Shown here piece by piece: positions 4,170 to 64,000 of a DNA stretch of 64,000 bases. Source of the DNA: Blepharisma japonicum (Eukaryota > Ciliophora > Heterotrichea > Heterotrichida > Blepharismidae); assembly GCA_949751835.1 (NCBI GenBank), contig CATKHK010000003.1, positions 1-64,000 on the forward strand. Direction: 5' to 3'. A model generated the notes under the pieces. The model saw only the letters and a list, made by a program, of their open reading frames with translations. It ran no database searches and had not been told where the DNA came from. Made by a program: the position numbers and the translations under genes. Position 1 is the stretch's first letter; every line of letters begins with the position of its first letter.

Positions 4170-7100
4170 TTATATGAAGACACAATTTTCTAAGCTTCCT
4201 TTGTCTTTTATCGTGTCACAAGTCTCGCTTTTTAATGATGGATTTTGACAATTTTGATAGCTTAAGGATCCAATATCAACAATATTTGAATACCTTTGTC
4301 TATTATTCTTCTTTTTTGCATATGAGAGCCAGTAGTTTTCAATTATTTTCATTATTGCACCAACACTACTCATTATTCCAAAAACTGAGCCAAGAAGTGT
4401 GCTAATAAAGATATCAAACGACTGAATATTGTCACTTGTAGTATATAAGCCATTGGAGCTCACAGTAAGAACAATATCTAAATAAGAATTGCTTGCCAGT
4501 CCAATTCTAAATTTAAATTACTCTAAGGTACGAAATTGCGAGCCTTTTACTGAACTTGATTCAAGAGTTGAATGATAACCTGTGTAAGTCTCATCATTTT
4601 GAAATTTTCTGTAATACTAAATAAGCTATACTGAAGGAATCATAGTGTAATATGCTATTGAGGGCTTTGATCCCAAAAAAATGCGATTGCTATCGGGCAA
4701 AATATATGTTGAGTAACTACTACTTTGACTTGGAATGGATGATGTAGACGTTACATTAGTTAAAAATCCAGAAGTATATCCTATATAATTATTCATTTCA
4801 TAAGAAATTTTTGCTTGGCCATTTATTGTACAGCGCCTGCATGAGAGTTCTGTAAAGCATCCGCCATTATAAAATCTGCAGTTGAGGCTGTTTCAAACTC
4901 CCTCGATATTTGAAATAGAGTAAGATATATCTGATGAGCAGGATTCATTAGCAATGCAAATTCCCCCATAATTGATAAATATTGCGACTATGGTTAAATT
5001 TGATACAAACTAAGTATTGATTACCCTTGATACTTCATTTTCAAGAACCACTAAAGGAACTAAGCTTTTGATCTCAACAATATTATTGATAGTGTAGCCT
5101 ACAATTCCAGTGCAAATAATAATGACAGCCAGTACCATAAAAATAATAGAAAAAATGCCACCTACAGATGATTGCCTCAGATACATAATTTGGTTGACAA
5201 AGTGGTTATGGCTTGATTGGTATAAATCAATAGACATCAAAAATTTCTTTTTTTGGTTCAGTACAAGCAAAACAGCAATTAGAGCAAGTCCAATAGCCCC
5301 AATAGTCAATTGCATAATGAGAGTGTATTTTCGATATTCATCATTATTTCCTTGAAATATAGATGGCTGATCTGAATAATCTTGATAAGAATTTTCCTGA
5401 ACAGAGTAATTGCTGCTTCCAGGTATACATGTAGCTCCTCCTGGACAATCAAGGCATTTAGCAGCTCCTGGCTTACTACTATATGAATTTTCCTCGCATG
5501 GATAGCACATACCACCTGTACTTGCTCCATAGTTTGGGTTGTACTTACCAGCGTCACATTTTTGGCAGGTTGCTGAGTCATAGACACTCGAATATGTTCC
5601 TGGAGGACAGATTTCACATGAAGAGGTTCTCATTGACCCTGGACTGCACTTTCAATAGCATGCTGATATATCTTCACAGTCAGATAGCAAATCTATCTTA
5701 AAAAACCGATTTGTAGGCACCTCATGTCTGAAAATTTTACCTAGAGTGGAAGCTCCTCCATGAATATAAATATAATTTTGAAAGTAGGAGTAAGCAGCTG
5801 CGAAGATAAAATTTGGTAAATTTCCGATCTGTATGTGGTCAGCTGATGATGTATTGAAATAAAAGATTTCTGATTTTGGCACAAAGCTGTTTGACTCGCC
5901 TCCTGCAACAATAATCCTGCTCTTCAATTTAAAAGCAAAGGTTCCTTTTCTGCTTCATGACAAATCAGCTCGATCATCATAATATTTCTTTCATGTGCTG
6001 TTTGTAATGTTAATGCTATAAAATTCATTCAGCGGTGATTCAGAATCTCCTTCTCCGTACATTATATAAACGATGTCATTAGATGTCGTTGAAATTCGGC
6101 AAGAAGCATATGCAAGAGGCCCTGGGCCGCCTGAATTTTGAGAGTCTATAAGTGTATAAGTATTTGTGACCAAGTCGTAAGTCCAAAATTCATCTGAGAG
6201 GCCAGAATTTGTCACTCCTCCAAATATCATTAACGAAGTCTCATGCAAAATGATACAAGCCCCTTTTCTTGGAGATGGAGAGTTTTCAATGGCTGGGAAA
6301 GAGCTCCAAGAATTAGTTGTTGCATCAAAAATGAAGCCGTCGTTTAGATAGCCGTCTGCGTTTTGTCCTCCTCATACAGCCATAGTATCAGCATATGAAG
6401 ACGACCCATGCCCATATCTCGCAGAAGGAATAGCTCCTTTTGCCTGAATTATCTTTCAGCTCTCAAGATTGGTATCATAGGCCCATAAATCGTTCAAAAA
6501 TGCGCTGTTATCAGTTTTGCCTCCAAATAAAAGCAAATATTTTCCAACATTTTGCATGGAATGGTACATTCTTGGACTTGGTGAGATATCATTCGGGAAA
6601 AAATTGTAAGCTATAGGTAATTTTGTCAAATTAAAAACGAGCAGGCAATTCAGAGTTTTTGAATTAGAAATACCTCCAAACGAATAGAGTTGCAAGTTGT
6701 AAAGAGTGAGACCGTAATTATAAATATTTGAATAGTCTTGGGAAGAGCTTGAAGAAATTGGTATTTTGACTCAACTATAGTCCGTGCTAGTTAAATTGAC
6801 CATATATCAGCTCTCGCTCACATTGTTCAATTTGCTTGACCAGCCAGTTAGTAAGAAGGCGGCCTTATCAAATAAAATGCTTCCTTGAAGCATTCTTGGA
6901 GTGTAAATTTGGACTGAGGTGATATTAATCCATGTCAAGCTGATAAGATCATATTTATAAAATGTTTGCACATAAGGGTCCCCATCATAAGTAGCTTCTC
7001 CAGCTGCCAAAAACAAAAATCCTTCATAATAAAATAATGAGGCTCCCAATGCTTTTTGAGGAATGTCACCCTGCTTTGGAAGATGAGTTCAGGCTCAAGT

Positions 7101-8894: not shown

Positions 8895-10712
8895 ATGGTT
8901 GAAACTTTCGTTGACGTCCCCGATGACTATTGCTGCCCGATAACTGGAGATCTCATGGAAGATCCAGTTGTAGCGCCAGATGGGCACAGCTATGAGCGTG
9001 CATCAATCACAGCTTGATTCCAAAAAAACAAAACTAGTCCTCTTACCGGCGCTGTTTTAAAAAACACCATCCTAATTGATAATCACAGACTAAAAACAAT
9101 AATCACCTCCTTTAAAGAGCGTTTGCCCGAAATTCAGCGTGAGTCTCAAATAAAACGAGATTTATTAGAAGCTATAAATATCAGAGAAGCATTCTTTCAA
9201 GATCATCTCCAAAAAGAAAAAGAGCAGATAGGGAATATTACGACAATGTATGAGAACGAAAAAGAAAAAAATTTACTACTTGAAAATAAGCTCACAGCCT
9301 GCAAAAAATTCCTTCAGGTAAAAACTGACCAAATGAAAGCCCTTCAAGAAAATTTGGACAATTTTAAAGGCATAAGTGAAGCAAAAAATGATGAACATAA
9401 AAGGCTTCATGAAGATCTAGCTCATGCCTTGGCTGAAAATGATGGGTTTAAAAGAGCGACAAAAGGGAGATTTGAAATTATTTTTGAAAAACTTGTGGAA
9501 ATACAAAAAAATATTAAGCAGTTAGAAAGGGCTATAAATACAAATAAGATAAGCGCTAATAGGTATCTATCAGAACTCAATAATTCTATCGCAAAGCTAA
9601 TAAGCGAGACTGAGAAGAATAAAAGAGATCTTGAAGATAGAAATGAAGTATTAGCAATCAAAAGAGAAAATGAATGAAATCTGCTCAACATTGAGAGCAG
9701 TAGTGATGACCCTGGTGACAAAATTTTAAACCTTTATGAGCCGATCATAATCCAAGCACCTGATCAGCCAAATATTGAAAACAAATCATTAGCCCCTCAA
9801 GAGCTTAAAAATAAAAAATATGCAATTTTAAGCCGGGTAAACGACCCATTATCAGAAGAAGATTTCAGAAAAACTTGCTCGCTATATGATAATGACTTTA
9901 AAGAAAATTTGGCAAACCCACAGCTTAGCCAAGCTTATCAAGATTATATAGTTGCTTATCATCAAAACACATCACTTTATTTTACCAGAAATGTTGGAAA
10001 TAGAACTCATTTAATTGTATATGACACTGAAAGCGAAAGAGAAGAAGTAAAACTCCTGGAGACTCCAGAACCAATAAATAGTGGCGCATGTATAGCTCAG
10101 CTTCCTAATAGTGAATTATTCTGCTTTGGAAACTCAAATCCACCTTCAGGAATGTCATTAATAATTGATAGAAATTATGAAGTTAGAACACTTACATCTG
10201 GAAAGCCTTGCTACTATTCGTCGGCTGTATATTTCAATAGAAATGTGTATTGTTTTGGAGGATTAAATAATAGTATTTTTAATTTATCAGAAAAATTCGA
10301 TTTAGATGTAAACCAATGAGTGAAATTAAGCTCAATGCCGCAGGCAGATGCCTTGTGCAGCTGCATAGTTTTTGAAGAGAATATTTTGATTTCTGGATAT
10401 AAAAATAGGCATCTTCTGAAGTATTCAATTGAGAAAAACAGCTTTGAAAGAATTTCTTATGAATTTTTGGCAGAAAAAAGAAAAATATTGATAAATGCAG
10501 AGAAATTGTATTTGATTGAGTGCGGTTATCAGGGATTTATATATGAAAGTAACGATGAGACTAGCTGGAGACAAATAGCTAGATCAAAAATTAGCTATGA
10601 TAGTCCCGCTCAAGTTTATTGCACATATAATAAAGGAGCAATATATTTCGGAAATGATTATAATGGAAGATATAAGTTTAATTTAGATCAAAAGATTGTG
10701 ATTAAACTCTAA
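8895..10712 (+). CDS. U-box, coiled-coil and kelch-type propeller protein, probable E3 ubiquitin ligase (605 aa)
   Basis: Residues 10-75 form a U-box: CCPITGDLMEDPVVAPDGHSYER, written here in two parts as CCPITGDLMEDP and VVAPDGHSYER, followed by ITAW and SPLTG. The conserved Trp41 is encoded by UGA (9015-9017). Residues about 75-260 are a coiled coil with UGA-Trp at 9675-9677. Residues about 340-605 are a kelch-type propeller closely similar to that of the gene at 1031 (QAYQDY, ACIAQLP, YCFGG, ILISGY, KFNL). U-boxes recruit E2 enzymes without zinc, so an E3 role with the propeller as substrate receptor is the family expectation. The ATG at 8895 was chosen because it immediately precedes the U-box. 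The upstream B-box relic at 8340-8830 suggests replacement of the domain. Confidence 0.85.
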
Positions 10713-11124
10713 TGATGCAAGTAGCTGGCTAGTTTTAGGGCAATAAATTTCAATAAAACCCAATTTTCTGTAAGAAAACTGAATTTTTTAAATTGGAGAA
10801 AATATGCTAAAATTATCTTATCCCAAATAGATTATGGATAATATATTATTTAATCATCTCCTCGTATTTAAAGTGACTAGGCTTAAGTTTATCTTAGATT
10901 TATGTTCACATCTAATTTCACGTAATATATTCCATCCTTAATCTTATTTAGATAGATAAAATGATTTTATAGCCTATACTAATTTTTGCACCGATCCACG
11001 TAATATAATTCCATCCTTAACCTTATTTAGATAGATAAAATGATTTTATAGCCTATTGTAATTTTTGCACCGATCCTTTATTAAAAATTATAGCAATTTT
11101 TTTATTAAGTCTAAATCAATCATC
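10713..11124. other. Spacer containing a tandem duplication
   Basis: No gene was seen. The stretch holds the 78/79-bp tandem repeat listed separately. Confidence 0.6.
10919..11075. repeat. Tandem repeat, two copies of 78-79 bp
   Basis: Copy 1 is 10919-10996 and copy 2 is 10997-11075. They differ at only a few positions. Each begins with CACGTAATATA and ends with TTTTTGCACCGATC, and contains the near-palindrome ATAAAATGATTTTAT. Two copies directly abut. Confidence 0.9.
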
Positions 11125-57191: not shown

Positions 57192-58394
57192 AAAGGATTG
57201 GTATAGATATTATAGTAAAATCGAATGAATGTAAAAATAAAATTATTTTATTGAATTTACCTTTGCAAAGGATGATTTTATAATAAATAATTTTTTCTTA
57301 TTAATAAATTAATAAATCTTATTGCTAATTATTGTTGTTTAAAAATGTCCTGAGATGATTTAAAAAATAATCTTAATAATTAACTATATTTTAAAAGGGC
57401 TAAATAATGTTTTACAAATTATTTATTTTAATTTTAATTCTATTATTCTTTGCATTATCATATAGCATTTTAAAGTGTTTCCAGTTAATGCATTATATCT
57501 TTATACTTAAAAATTTTATATATCAGCTAATTATTATGAGTAATATTAATTCAAATATTTTTGATTTTACTTAATTTAGATATGATAGACATTTTTCAGA
57601 TTTTAATGAGATTTATAGATAATTACTTGGAATTTATGCAAAAAGTGCAAGCATGAACTTTGACAGTTTAACGAATGCTAATGAACTTTTATTTCCATTT
57701 ATTGCATATGACATGCCTGGTAGAAGTCTACCATTTTATCTAATTACAAATTAATGCTAGGAAGATGCAAAAAAGTTATTGTTTTGGGATATAATATTAC
57801 TTTTCCACAAAGATATGGTAGAAAGTAATGAGATAACAAATTTTGGGAATTTCTATTGAATTTTTAATTTCCTATTAATAAGATTCAAATTATGCTTTGT
57901 TGTGAAATAGCATTAGGTAATCGAGAAATCTGCACTCAATAAGAAATTCACTTAATTCAAAATATTTTTGCAGACAGTCACTAATTTTTTGGAAATATAA
58001 AATAAAAGGGCTTCAAAGTAGCAATATCGTTTCAGAAATGATAAACTTTTTTTATTCAAACCTTAAATACATTCTTCTTAATTAATAAAGGCTAATTTTC
58101 TAGACTAAGATTATAGCTAATGAAAAAATTATTTTTGTCACCTTAGCCCCATTTTTATCAGGAAATGGAATATTAAAATTCTACAATTTTTTTAAATAGA
58201 TTAATTCATTTTACTTTAGACTTATAATTATCAATATTAATTATATAAATATTTCCTATCAGCTTCAATCATGCTTTATTAGTGAAAATCCCAAAAAATT
58301 AGATAATTGAGTGAAATTTTCAATTATAAAAAAGTAATTAAAAATGTAAAAAATTAACTAAAATATAATTCATTTAATAAATATTATTTGCAAT
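57192..58394. other. 1.2-kb AT-rich stretch, last part duplicated downstream
   Basis: A coding-like block at about 57640-57750 on the plus strand (MNFDSLTNANELLFPFIAYDMPG) is bounded by UAA/UAG, so it is at best a decayed gene. From about 58146 the sequence matches the region before 61958, forming the upstream part of the tandem duplication. Confidence 0.5.
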
Positions 58395-61241
58395 ATGTCA
58401 CTATTAGATCCATATGAGGCTTTAAAGATTTTTTTCCTCAAAAACCGTGAAGTATTCAGAAGTTGGCACAATACTATGCTTCAAAAATATCTGGCTTATG
58501 TAAAAATCCCAAAGTTTAGTAAAGAAAAATACTTAGAGGAAAATATTAGATCGATGATTGACAATAATGACGATTGCAGCATTTTAGAATTTTTTAGATT
58601 AATAACCTGCTTAGCATATGGCAAGGCAGCGAAGCTAGAATTTTTACATTTGGAGGAACTTATAAACTCAAAATTCCAACTTTCAATTTTGTCTCTGCTC
58701 GTAAAATCTCCAATCGAAGATCTCGAAGACAGATTTAAGTATCAAGTTTTTGAGCTTTTACAGTTAAACGAGCTTTATAAATGAATGATAAGTCCTGATG
58801 CTGACGCTAGTGAAAGCTTAAAAAGCAAAGAAAACATCGTTAGCTTTGTAGCTTATTTCTCTTTTATTAGAAAATTTTTATCAGAGAGTTTGAAATCCAT
58901 CAAAATGTTAGGTTCATGAAATTTTATTAAAACAGCAGAATTTCTGATGAACTTTACAAAAGACAGCTTTGAGTGTTTAGATGAGTTTTTTTCATTCTGT
59001 TGTGAGGTTTCAATGTTCTGTAAGATAGAGTACAATTTTCTGGAAGAGCAAGTTTTGAATTGTTTTATTGACAACATTTGCTCATGACACACGCTTGAGA
59101 ATGTTTTAAATTTAGTCAATCATATCAAATTTGAAGAAAGCACTATACAAAAATTATGCCAGATAATTCATGACTCTTTTAATTGAGAGAGAACGGCAGT
59201 TTTAAAATATTTTTTATCTGGAAAAGAAGTCCTTACAGAATCCTATCGTTGTTTAATATCAAATTATTATGCCAATATAAATGATCGAGTAAGCATTGTC
59301 ATGGTCAATAGAATTTTTGAAGCATTACAGATCTATACTACAGATATTGATAAAAGATCAGCAAATATCATTTTTGAAGATATAAGGCTGGATGAATTCA
59401 TAAAAACAAAAGGAGTTTTGGATTGCTTTATAAGGCCCATTGAAGATATAATTAATACACAGCTAACAAGGCCGGATTGTTGATATGACCTTTTGGATGC
59501 TTATTTCGAAAAACTTCCGGATCTAGAAGACAAGAGTTTGGAGCGAGCTAAAAGTCATATACCAATGCTAACTTTATACTTATATTTAGATCCATGCAAT
59601 AGACAACAAGAATCAAAAAAAGAGCAAATAACTAACTATTTAGCGTCATTTATCTCTCAGTTTGAGAGTCAAAAAAAATTATATTTTGATGATATTTTAA
59701 ATTTTTTTAAAGCCACTTTTGCATTTATGCCTGAAATTCAAAACCACTTTCATAATTTTTTAGAGAATAATCTTCTGCCTAATTGAAGGCAGAAAAAGAA
59801 ATCTATTAAGGAAAAATATTCATCAGTGCCTTCTAGTTTATATAATGCAGATCAAGAAAATGAGAAAATATTAATAAGAGTTGTTATTTCACTGGCTAAG
59901 CGTATTCTGGCGTTTAAAATTAATTCCGAAGCTCAATTTAATTATCTTGCTGTCACAGAGTTTGAGGATTTTATAAACTCATATATTTCTATCATAAGGG
60001 AAAAAAATATTAAAAGCTTGTTTCTATTTTATAGAGATATCCGTAAATACCTCGAAGCTTTTAATTTCAATAAAATTGCTTATGAGGAAAGCAAAAATAG
60101 AATAATAATAGCTAATTATTTTATATGTTTAATCAAAAACTCTTTGACTAAAGTTTTTAAGGAATATGCAAATAGATTGAAAAAGAAGCAGCAAGAGCTA
60201 GAAGAAAGTAAAAATCAAATACCTCTAGATTTCATTGAATCTGAAAAAGAAACTTTAGGCAAAACAAAAGATTGTGATACTTTGGGAAAAATTTCTGCTG
60301 AAGAAAGTAAATTTCAAGAATGCAGTGATGAGGAGAACTTGAACTGAATGATAGAAAGTGATTTAGATGGGGACAAACAAATTGTTGGAGATTCATTTTG
60401 AAATGAATTTTGAGAAATAAAAGAAATTCAAGCAAACTATATAGAAGAGTTTCGGAACTCATTCCTTCACAAAATGGTTTTTAGCAATGATGATAAAAAC
60501 TTTGTCTCAAGGCAATATCTAGCATCTCATCTTACAAGACTTTTCAATGGAACTTTAGACAAATTAAATACAAGCTTTTTAACTGAAGGCGAACAAAGAG
60601 CCATTAAATTGCTATTTAATCCCCCAAAAAGATTGAATAATGAACAAACTGATGAACTTAAAAGAATTTTATTTTCTATGTCTGTTCAAGGAGGTTTTTT
60701 GAGAGAGAATATTTGGAATGAAAATAATAATTTAATTGAAAGAACATATTTTGCAGATCTTCCAGATTATATTAGTGGAATGACAGTCTTTGGTGGAACA
60801 ATTTTACTACATCAAAACTTGTCACAGTTTAATGATTTCAAGTCTTGCTTCAGAAAAATAATCTTTATTCATGAAGCAGCTCACGCATTGAGAAAATATA
60901 ACGAGGGATTTTATAATCCAGAAAAGAAAGCTCTAAAATCAAGAAAAACACCACTTCGTAGTGGAATGCCTGGAAGCATAGAATTTATCTCTGATCTTAG
61001 AGAACACGACAAAAATGAATGTGGAAAATTAATAGAGAATGCAATTTTTGGTACCTTTTTTACCAAAATAAATAAATCGCAAATCGATTATATAAATGAT
61101 TTGGTAAATTGGAATCAGACTATAGATTATTTTAAATTCGATATCGCAAAAAAAGGCAAAAAGGCATCAAAAACTTATGAATTAGCTCGAGGAAGTCATT
61201 TCATTTCAAATTCAAGAAATGATAGCTGTGAGCATTATTAA
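58395..61241 (+). CDS. Unrecognised large protein with C-terminal HEXXH zincin-like domain (948 aa)
   Basis: At least nine UGA-Trp codons join the frame to a TAA at 61239-61241; with the standard code it would look like seven fragments. Residues 1-600 are alpha-helical, Leu/Phe/Lys/Glu-rich and without known repeats. Residues about 605-660 are very charged (KKKQQELEESK, EESKFQECSDEE). Residues about 690-948 form a separate domain with IFIHEAAHALRK (HEAAH at residues 826-830) and, 45 residues later, ECGKLIENAIFG, whose E875 or E881 could be the third zinc ligand. This fits a gluzincin-like metallopeptidase, but the family is not identified. There is no signal peptide, so it is probably cytosolic. 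A close tandem copy follows. Confidence 0.75.
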
Positions 61242-61957
61242 ATAGCTAATTGCGCCTTTAATAGAAATTATTAAAAAATTAAAACTCAATAGAAATAAAT
61301 GGAGAATTCATTTTAATAATAAAGGAATAATACTTTACTTTGAGGATTCAGTCTTTTGCATGCTATTTAAGTTGTAGAAAATATTTGATAAGCAAGAAAT
61401 CATGCTCAATAATAATCCTTAATTTATTAAATATAAAGTATCTATTTTCAGTGTTCTAACTGAGATGAGCCATTTTCATTAAAGGCTTAAATGCTAAATT
61501 TTTGGACAATCTGTCTTAAATTTTACAAAATTTTATTTTTTTGACAAATTTAGGCAATCTTGGTTGGACTGCCCCCTATAGGAGTCTAATAGGGGGTGGG
61601 AGCTAAATTGTTAATTAAAAATTAGATTTGTTTGCTTTTGTTCCCATTTTATCAGTAAATGAAACAATTAAAATTCTTCAAATTTTTAGTTGATCAATCC
61701 ATTATTTATCAATATAAATTATATGATAAACCAAGATATCTCCTTAGCTCTATAATGCTTTATGTGTGAAAAAGCCATAAAGACACTTATTAGCGTTTTG
61801 TGATGAAAATTTCACTGTTCCCTGATAAAATAACAAAATTTCAGAGGAATGACTAAAAAATTTAGATAATTGAGTGATATTTTCATTTATAAAAAAGTAA
61901 TTAAAAATGTAAAAAATTAACTAAAATATAATTAATTTAATAAATATTATTTGCAAT
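61242..61957. other. Spacer between the tandem copies
   Basis: No gene was found. From about 61642 it matches the upstream region of the first copy. It contains a GC-rich hairpin at 61572-61596. Confidence 0.6.
61572..61596. other. GC-rich perfect inverted repeat
   Basis: CCCCCTAT (61572-61579) pairs with ATAGGGGG (61589-61596) around a 9-nt loop, within strongly AT-rich DNA. It lies about 330 bp after the stop of the first copy, so it is not an obvious terminator of that gene. Confidence 0.6.
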
Positions 61958-64000
61958 ATGTCACTATTAGATCCATATGAGGCGGTGAAGATTTTTTTCC
62001 TCAAAAACTGTGAAAAAATCAGAAGTTTGCACATTAATGCGCCTGAAAATAGTCTGGCTTATGTAAAAATCCCCAAGTTTAGCCCAGAAATATACTTAGA
62101 GGAAAATATTAGATCGATGATTGACAGTAATGACGATCGCAGCATTTTAGAATTTTTTAGAGTAATAACCTGCTTAGCATATGGCGGGGCAATGGAGCTA
62201 GAATTTTTGCATTTGGACGAACTTATAAAGTCAAAATTCGAGCTTTCAATTTTGTCTCTGCTCGTAAAATCTCCAATCGAAGATCTCGAAGACAGATTTA
62301 AGTTTCGAGTTTTTGAGCTTTTACAGGAAAACGAGCTTTATAAATGAATGATAAGTCCTAATGCTGACGTTAGTGAAAGCTTAAAAAGCAAAGAAAACAT
62401 CGTTAGCTTTGTAGCTTATTTCTCTTTTATTGGAAAATTTTCATCGGAGAGTTTGAACTCGATCAAAACGTTAGATTCATGAAATTTTATTAAAACAGCA
62501 GAATTTCTGATGAACTTTGCAAAAGACAGCTTTGAGTGTTTAGATGAGTTTTTTTCATTCTGTTGTGAGGTTTCAATGCTCTGTAAGATAGAGTACAATT
62601 TTCTGGAAGAGCATATTTTGAATTGTCTGATTGACAATATTTGCTCATGGCACACGCTTGAGAATGTTTTAAATTTAGCCAATCATATCAAATTTGAAGA
62701 AAGCACTATACAAAAATTATGCCAGATAATTCATGAATCTTTTAATTGAGAGAAAGATGCAGTTTTAAAATTTTTTTTATCTGGAAAAGAAGTCCTTACA
62801 GAATCCTATCGTTGTATAATATCAAATTATTATGCCAATAGAAATGATCGAGTAAGCATTGTCATGGTCAATAGAATTTTTGAAGCATTACAAATCTATA
62901 CTACAGATATTGATAAAAGATCAGCAAATATCATTTTTGAAGATATAAGGCTGGATGAATTCATAAAAACAAAAGGAGTTTTGGATTCCTTTATAAGGCC
63001 CATTGAAGATATAATTAATACACAGCTAACAAGGCCGGATTGTTGATATGACCTTTTAGATGCTTATTTCGAAAAACTTCCAGATCTAGAAGACAAGAGT
63101 TTGGAGCGAGCTAAAAGTCATATACCAATGCTAACTTTATACTTATGCTTAGATCCAAGCAACAGACAGCAAGAATCAAAAAAAGTGCAAATAACTAACT
63201 ATTTAGCGTCATTTATTTCTCAGTTTGAGAATCAAAAAGGTTGGAAAAATGATGATATTTTAAATTTTTTCAAAGTCACTTTTGCATTTATGCCTGAAAT
63301 TCAAAACCACTTTCATAACTTTTTAGAGAATAATCTTCTGCCTAATTGAATGCAAAAAAAGAAATCTCTTAAGGAAAAATATTCATCAGTCCCTTCTAAT
63401 TTATACGATGAAAGTCGAGAAGATGAGAAAATATTAATAAGAGTTGCTATTTTACTGGCTAAGCGTATTCTGGCGTTTAAAATTAATTCCGAAGCTCAAT
63501 TTAATTATCTTGCTGTCACAGAGTTTGAGGATTTTATAAACTCATATATTTCTATCATAAGGGAAAAAGATATTAAAAGCTTGTTTTCATTTTATAGAGA
63601 TATCGGTAAATACCTCGAAGCTTTTAATTTCAATAAAATTGCTTATGAGGATAGCAAAAATAGAATAACAATCGCTCAATTTTTTATAGGTTTAATCAAA
63701 AACTCTTTGACTGAAGTTTTTAAAGAATATGCAAATAGATTGAAAAAGAAGCAGCAAGAGCTAGAAGAAAGTAAAAATAAAATACCTCTAGATTTCATTG
63801 AATCTGAAAAAGAAACTTTAGGCAAAGCAAAAGATTATGATACCATGGTAAAAATTTCTGCTGAAGAAAGTAAATTTCAAGAATGCAGTGATGAGGAGAA
63901 TTTGAACTGAATGATAGAAAGTGGTTTAGATGGGTACAAACAAATTATTGGAGATTCATTTTGAAATGAATTTTGAGCAAGCAAGGACGTTCAAGCAAAC
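61958..64000 (+). CDS. Second copy of the zincin-like large protein, cut by the window end (681 codons seen)
   Basis: It starts MSLLDPYEAVKIFFLKN like the first copy and stays open through the same UGA-Trp positions to base 64000. Identity to the first copy is very high over much of the length (for example 62840-63050 shows only a few changes). It is low in a short N-terminal stretch (residues about 17-34) and around residues 425-440. No premature UAA or UAG is present. The part coding for HEXXH would lie beyond the window, so presence of the catalytic domain cannot be checked here. Confidence 0.75.

Follow-up and report, generated by a model that had tools for sequence, protein, structure and literature searches.

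In the gluzincins of clan MA(E), a glutamate downstream of the HEXXH motif is the third zinc ligand, while the CLCA metalloproteases, another HEXXH family, are membrane or secreted proteins. Here we describe a protein family with at least 25 loci and two architectures that have a zincin-like C-terminal domain in common. It is represented by a tandem array of large genes that starts within the first 64,000 nucleotides of contig C3 (positions 1-64,000, the window hereafter; the genome comprises 45.2 Mb in 224 contigs), and was traced by protein searches of the same genome in which the best candidates were scored, so that all locus counts are lower bounds. As in the gluzincins, HEXXH is accompanied by a conserved Glu 45 residues past the second His and by a conserved strand-like segment ahead of the HEXXH helix, whereas the context of the Glu (E-x-G-x(3)-E-x(2)-[IL]-F) is different, no zincin model of Pfam or NCBIfam scores the family well, and its gluzincin-like fold is putative. 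With CLCA the family has in common the HEXXH motif and the loss of the catalytic site in some members, CLCA proteins with substituted sites having been described (PMC3650047), whereas Pfam scans of the family gave no sequence match of the CLCA kind. On balance, we read these genes as a multigene family of soluble, gluzincin-like proteins that includes pseudoenzymes and is possibly used in biological conflict.

With TGA read as Trp (translation table 4, in which TAA and TAG are the stops), positions 58395-61241 of the plus strand form an open reading frame (ORF) of 948 amino acids (aa) that contains nine TGA codons; as the preliminary description of this stretch had foreseen, the standard code breaks it into fragments, ten pieces of 3-275 aa. 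A gene that has TGA codons in frame and matches no library model is easily overlooked or split. The window is A+T-rich (27-42% GC in 2-kb steps), and both the code and this A+T-richness are similar to those of the macronuclear genome of Blepharisma stoltei, for which 41 Mbp, 66% A+T and UGA as Trp are reported (PMC9942806); a Blepharisma-like heterotrich is suggested. Within copy 1 (58395-61241), 9 of 12 Trp codons are TGA, versus 41 of 123 in 22 other ORFs of the window.

The same description had presented a tandem pair, duplicated with its upstream region, of which the second member was open as far as seen. The tandem duplication holds, but the pair is a triplet plus remnant inside the larger family: C3 carries three complete copies (58395-61238, 61958-64801 and 65409-68252, stop codons excluded) and the remnant of another C-terminus at 68512-68679. 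Copy 2 is open from 61958 to the end of the window and complete to C3:64804, and its sequence past the window does contain HEAAH, together with the downstream element EGGKIIE. The flanks of copies 1 and 2 are duplicated, as had been stated for the upstream side: they align closely over about 100 bases upstream and about 250 bases downstream, while copies 2 and 3 have longer upstream sequence in common than copies 1 and 2. Each copy measures 2847 bases including the stop codon, without indels; copies 2 and 3 are 85% and 84% identical to copy 1 at the protein level. A duplication created by the assembly is unlikely, since the copies differ pairwise at 133-215 of the 2847 bases. The C-terminal HEAAH and ECGKLIE that had been noted in copy 1 (residues 826-830 and 875-881) recur as HEAAH and E[CG]GK[LI]IE at the same places in all three copies.

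Motif conservation was assessed in 24 copies, i.e. the 25 loci minus C95, which does not contain the domain; decayed pieces had been removed ahead of the counts. An intact HEXXH is present in 14 copies representing both deep subfamilies, and these include three (C1, C43:19k and C3:495k) that are each interrupted elsewhere. A chance HEXXH can be rejected, as 0.024 occurrences are expected in one protein with the composition of copy 1 and the motif stands at the same column in these 14 of 24 paralogues. The Glu of HEXXH and the first Gly of the upstream G-x-T are retained in 24/24 copies, and the equivalent of Glu875 in 21/22, with Asn in C127b and the segment missing from C39 and C3:495k. In a separate alignment of ten HEXXH copies from both architectures, G795, T797, G800, I803, H826, E827, H830, E875, G877, F885, N905, W906 and F913 are invariant. 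Because of this invariance Glu875 is the likely third ligand, as had been proposed for the downstream element, and it is a better candidate than Glu881, which is replaced by Lys in C1. The shared HEXXH column and the conserved downstream Glu support the zincin-like motif set originally noticed in a single protein. Judged by these motifs, the family probably has a zincin-like site, and it is reasonably likely that the HEXXH copies are active proteases: zinc would be held by His826, His830 and Glu875, with Glu827 activating the water and the substrate cleft lined by the GMTVFGG segment.

HEXXH is broken in the remaining 10 of the 24 copies, where one or both His residues are changed and the Glu never is. 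The expected presence of HEXXH in relatives, checked among paralogues, is thus borne out in part of the family only. A tree computed with the HEXXH columns removed requires the motif to change state seven times, each time because of branches with good support, a count that includes some long branches and does not itself tell gain from loss; since the motif occurs in both deep groups, it was probably lost several times rather than gained. Broken motifs are found in open, still-duplicating copies (C4:108k, 112k and 117k; C43:14k and 16k), which suggests that ligand-less forms are useful or tolerated.

Selection on the copies was estimated with a purpose-written pairwise fit of the MG94-F3x4 codon model. 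For the 20 recent pairs omega was 0.99-1.08 (three C3 pairs), 0.63-0.93 (ten C4 pairs), 0.93 (C31) and 0.88-1.67 (six C43 pairs), superseding Nei-Gojobori values of 0.53-1.33; in 4/20 pairs the difference from 1 had an uncorrected p < 0.05, two C43 pairs lying above 1 and two C4 pairs below. The five older pairs gave omega of 0.02-0.31, indicating purifying selection, and the method thus returns purifying selection where this is expected, with the reservation that one or more of the five are saturated and that the size of the C10/C41 value (0.02, at saturated distance) means little. Neutral simulation predicted 5.9-9.0 stops between the C3 pairs and, for the remaining 17 pairs, 4.4-8.8 (the split fifth copy of C43 being left out), and none was observed; the frames had been picked as open, yet every full copy found in C3 (3/3), C4 (5/5) and C31 (2/2) is open. 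With the same caveat, the lack of stops disfavours a decaying pseudogene array for C3, C4, C31 and the four C43 copies compared. Recent copies preserve the reading frame yet tolerate replacements freely.

The long form of the protein is encoded at no fewer than 15 loci (C3 x3, C4 x5 in tandem, C31 x2, C127 x2, C8, C1 and C95) and the short form, 385-506 aa in uninterrupted copies, at no fewer than 10 (C10, C41, C51, C43 x5, C39 and C3:495k). C1 and C39 have frame changes inside the gene, C43:19k is split, the ORF at C3:495k ends shortly after its HETPH, and the N-terminal part of C8 lies in a different frame. Decayed pieces are present at C15, C21, C41:47k, C43:20k, C33, C3:68.5k and possibly C97. 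In profile comparisons of five subfamily sets, the zincin domains were related at 69-99.9% probability in 9/10 pairs, with C31 versus C43 at 21.7%. Among the long N-termini, those of the C3, C4 and C1 types match one another at 92-95%, and that of C31 matches C4 at 79%, C3 at 12% and C1 at 0.3%; the short N-termini form a related set of their own (98.4%), while eight comparisons of short with long N-termini gave no relation (at most 0.6%). For copy 1, the description of about 600 residues as helical finds weak support: the helical moment exceeds that of shuffled sequences by 1.4-3.3 standard deviations in five segments spanning residues 161-948 and is no higher than in shuffles for residues 1-160, and the N-terminal region shows modest helical periodicity. 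In 7/8 members tested there is no 19-residue stretch of mean hydropathy above 1.6, and we therefore infer soluble, probably cytosolic proteins. The C95 paralogue (L010, 1507-3891) consists of a 795-aa ORF of the long N-terminal region that ends at the very point at which a zincin domain would start; the ORF after it is, to judge from its repeats, presumably RCC1-like. In the short-form copies of C43 (L031-L036), the strand-like segment is separated from HEXXH by an E/K-rich insert whose length varies.

The preliminary description had recognised no familiar family, and the library comparisons agree: all Pfam matches listed for two window and nine family proteins are under the curated cut-off. 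Alignment scans, in which matches are given without cut-offs, were weak against Pfam (at most 3/20 members; among the 25 of 41 families listed the best were BUD22 with E 1.9e-4 and DDHD with E 4e-4, one member each), NCBIfam (at most 4/15 members, best E 0.016) and PADLOC (1/20 members each), and as a guess the low complexity of the C43 insert is behind some of the Pfam matches. Sequence searches of the PDB gave nothing better than E 0.065. The only hints of a metallopeptidase from libraries were PHROG 87 ('metallo-protease') and DUF3810 (PF12725), the latter itself zincin-like. PHROG 87 is matched by 3/10 HEXXH members (best E 0.011), but weakly, and no phage record matches the domain of the window; DUF3810 is matched by one member, but by that one of 20 only, and nine other family proteins have no match at E 0.5. 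No relative was found in phage and plasmid records, nor in four scans of viral contigs, and of 53 and 596 peptide-pattern stretches in prokaryotic genome contigs none was confirmed by tblastn; the contig searches used automatically chosen peptides, with which distant relatives would be missed. By a new family we mean one absent from Pfam, NCBIfam, PADLOC, the PDB and the phage, plasmid, viral and prokaryotic contig collections. A literature search, with most subscription papers outside its coverage, found no description of it. Uncharacterised eukaryotic proteins may carry a similar E-x-G-x(3)-E-x(2)-lFG motif, which is given as a lead only.

Our preferred reading, a gluzincin-like family that includes pseudoenzymes, draws on the three intact tandem copies with their remnant, the two architectures with one domain in common, the conserved motifs and the changes of HEXXH state on the tree, the open frames of recent copies at omega near 1, the purifying selection between older pairs, the low hydropathy of most members and the weak PHROG 87 match. 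Tandem duplication would yield copies that diverge rapidly with the frame kept open, the long N-terminal region would form a recognition or regulatory scaffold, and in several lineages pseudoenzymes may have arisen by loss of zinc ligands. Most likely the family would serve to cleave fast-changing targets, either foreign or self/non-self proteins, and copies without the ligands would act as decoys or regulators. A role in conflict is put forward tentatively; defence or self/non-self recognition would be compatible with the fast birth, loss and divergence of the copies. More specifically, and doubtfully, the proteins may make up a system for immunity inside the ciliate cell or for telling self from non-self, in which fast-diversifying metalloproteases of the cytosol, each bearing its own recognition scaffold, are the effectors, and derived pseudoproteases and the scaffold-only C95 serve as decoys or inhibitors. 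If confirmed, this would be an undescribed zincin-like family with repeated conversion of enzyme to pseudoenzyme in live tandem arrays of one genome. It would also provide a heterotrich-like ciliate with a concrete candidate for defence within the cell or for self-recognition. Several observations weigh against the reading: the only zincin-type recognition by Pfam or NCBIfam is the weak single-member DUF3810 match (E 0.004), the fold is inferred, HEXXH is broken in 10 of the 24 copies, C10 contains a hydrophobic stretch in which the 19-residue mean reaches 1.93, and an omega near 1 is as compatible with relaxed constraint as with diversification.

Relaxed constraint is central to the alternative to which we give a smaller but real chance, namely that these zincin-like proteases do ordinary work inside the cell, in turnover or processing, and that their redundant tandem copies are heading for loss without any conflict. 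Recent pairs near omega 1 with no significant excess in C3, C4 and C31, the decayed pieces at several loci and the loss of ligands are all in keeping with it, whereas the full copies of C3, C4 and C31 contain no stops against a neutral expectation of 4.6-9.0 (in frames taken as open beforehand), and 2/6 C43 pairs exceed omega 1 at the uncorrected threshold. It is less probable that the domain, although derived from a zincin, now serves mainly for binding or as a scaffold, HEXXH being a relic in many copies; the ten copies without the motif, some of them open and still duplicating, fit such a history, which is harder to reconcile with the joint invariance of HEXXH and Glu875 in ten copies of both architectures and with the retention of HEXXH in all three C3 copies although 173 of their 948 positions vary. 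That the genes belong to a mobile or viral element multiplied in the genome is very improbable: they are found at many scattered loci and in tandem arrays, but the viral, phage and plasmid searches yielded no relative, 20 other ORFs of the window gave no transposase match (terminal repeats around scattered copies were not looked for), and the array repeats the gene plus its flanks, as unequal exchange does.

Table 1. Features of the tandem array within the window
Feature	Positions	Strand	Basis or remarks
Copy 1, long N-terminal region and zincin-like C-terminal domain	58395..61241	+	Open under table 4; equal in length to two other copies, with no indels
GMTVFGGTILL, upstream of the HEXXH helix; probably an edge strand at the active-site cleft (predicted role)	60777..60809	+	First Gly in 24/24 copies; G795, T797, G800 and I803 invariant in ten HEXXH copies
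HEAAH, residues 826-830; His826 and His830 probably bind zinc and Glu827 is probably catalytic	60870..60884	+	Motif alignments
ECGKLIENAIFG, residues 875-886, with Glu875 as probable third zinc ligand	61017..61052	+	Glu875 invariant in ten HEXXH copies; 21/22 copies having the segment
Copy 2, first 681 codons within the window	61958..64000	+	Continues past the window to C3:64804, with HEAAH and EGGKIIE
Sequence upstream of copy 1, included in the duplication (limits approximate)	58293..58394	+	Alignment; short tandem unit at 58325-58368
Matching upstream stretch of copy 2 (limits approximate)	61855..61957	+	Alignment; same short tandem unit as copy 1, at 61888-61931
Downstream stretch of copy 1 common to copies 2 and 3 (end approximate)	61242..61490	+	Alignment

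At conserved positions copy 1 differs from the other two, with KKALK versus KKTPK, the Thr-Pro of which is nearly invariant in the family, and Cys876 versus Gly, and copies 2 and 3 are therefore better suited to experiments. The spacer between copies 1 and 2 contains about 100 bases (approximately 61500-61605) with a GC-rich inverted repeat (CCCCCTATAGGAGTCTAATAGGGGG), a stretch that the spacer between copies 2 and 3 lacks. The window, which begins at base 1 of the contig, has no match to a telomere-repeat pattern ascribed to Blepharisma. A 79-base unit is duplicated head-to-tail at 10919-11076 with 95% matches, one ORF (8895-10709) combines a U-box with kelch repeats, and kelch repeats are also present in further ORFs at 1031-2791 and 5013-6893.

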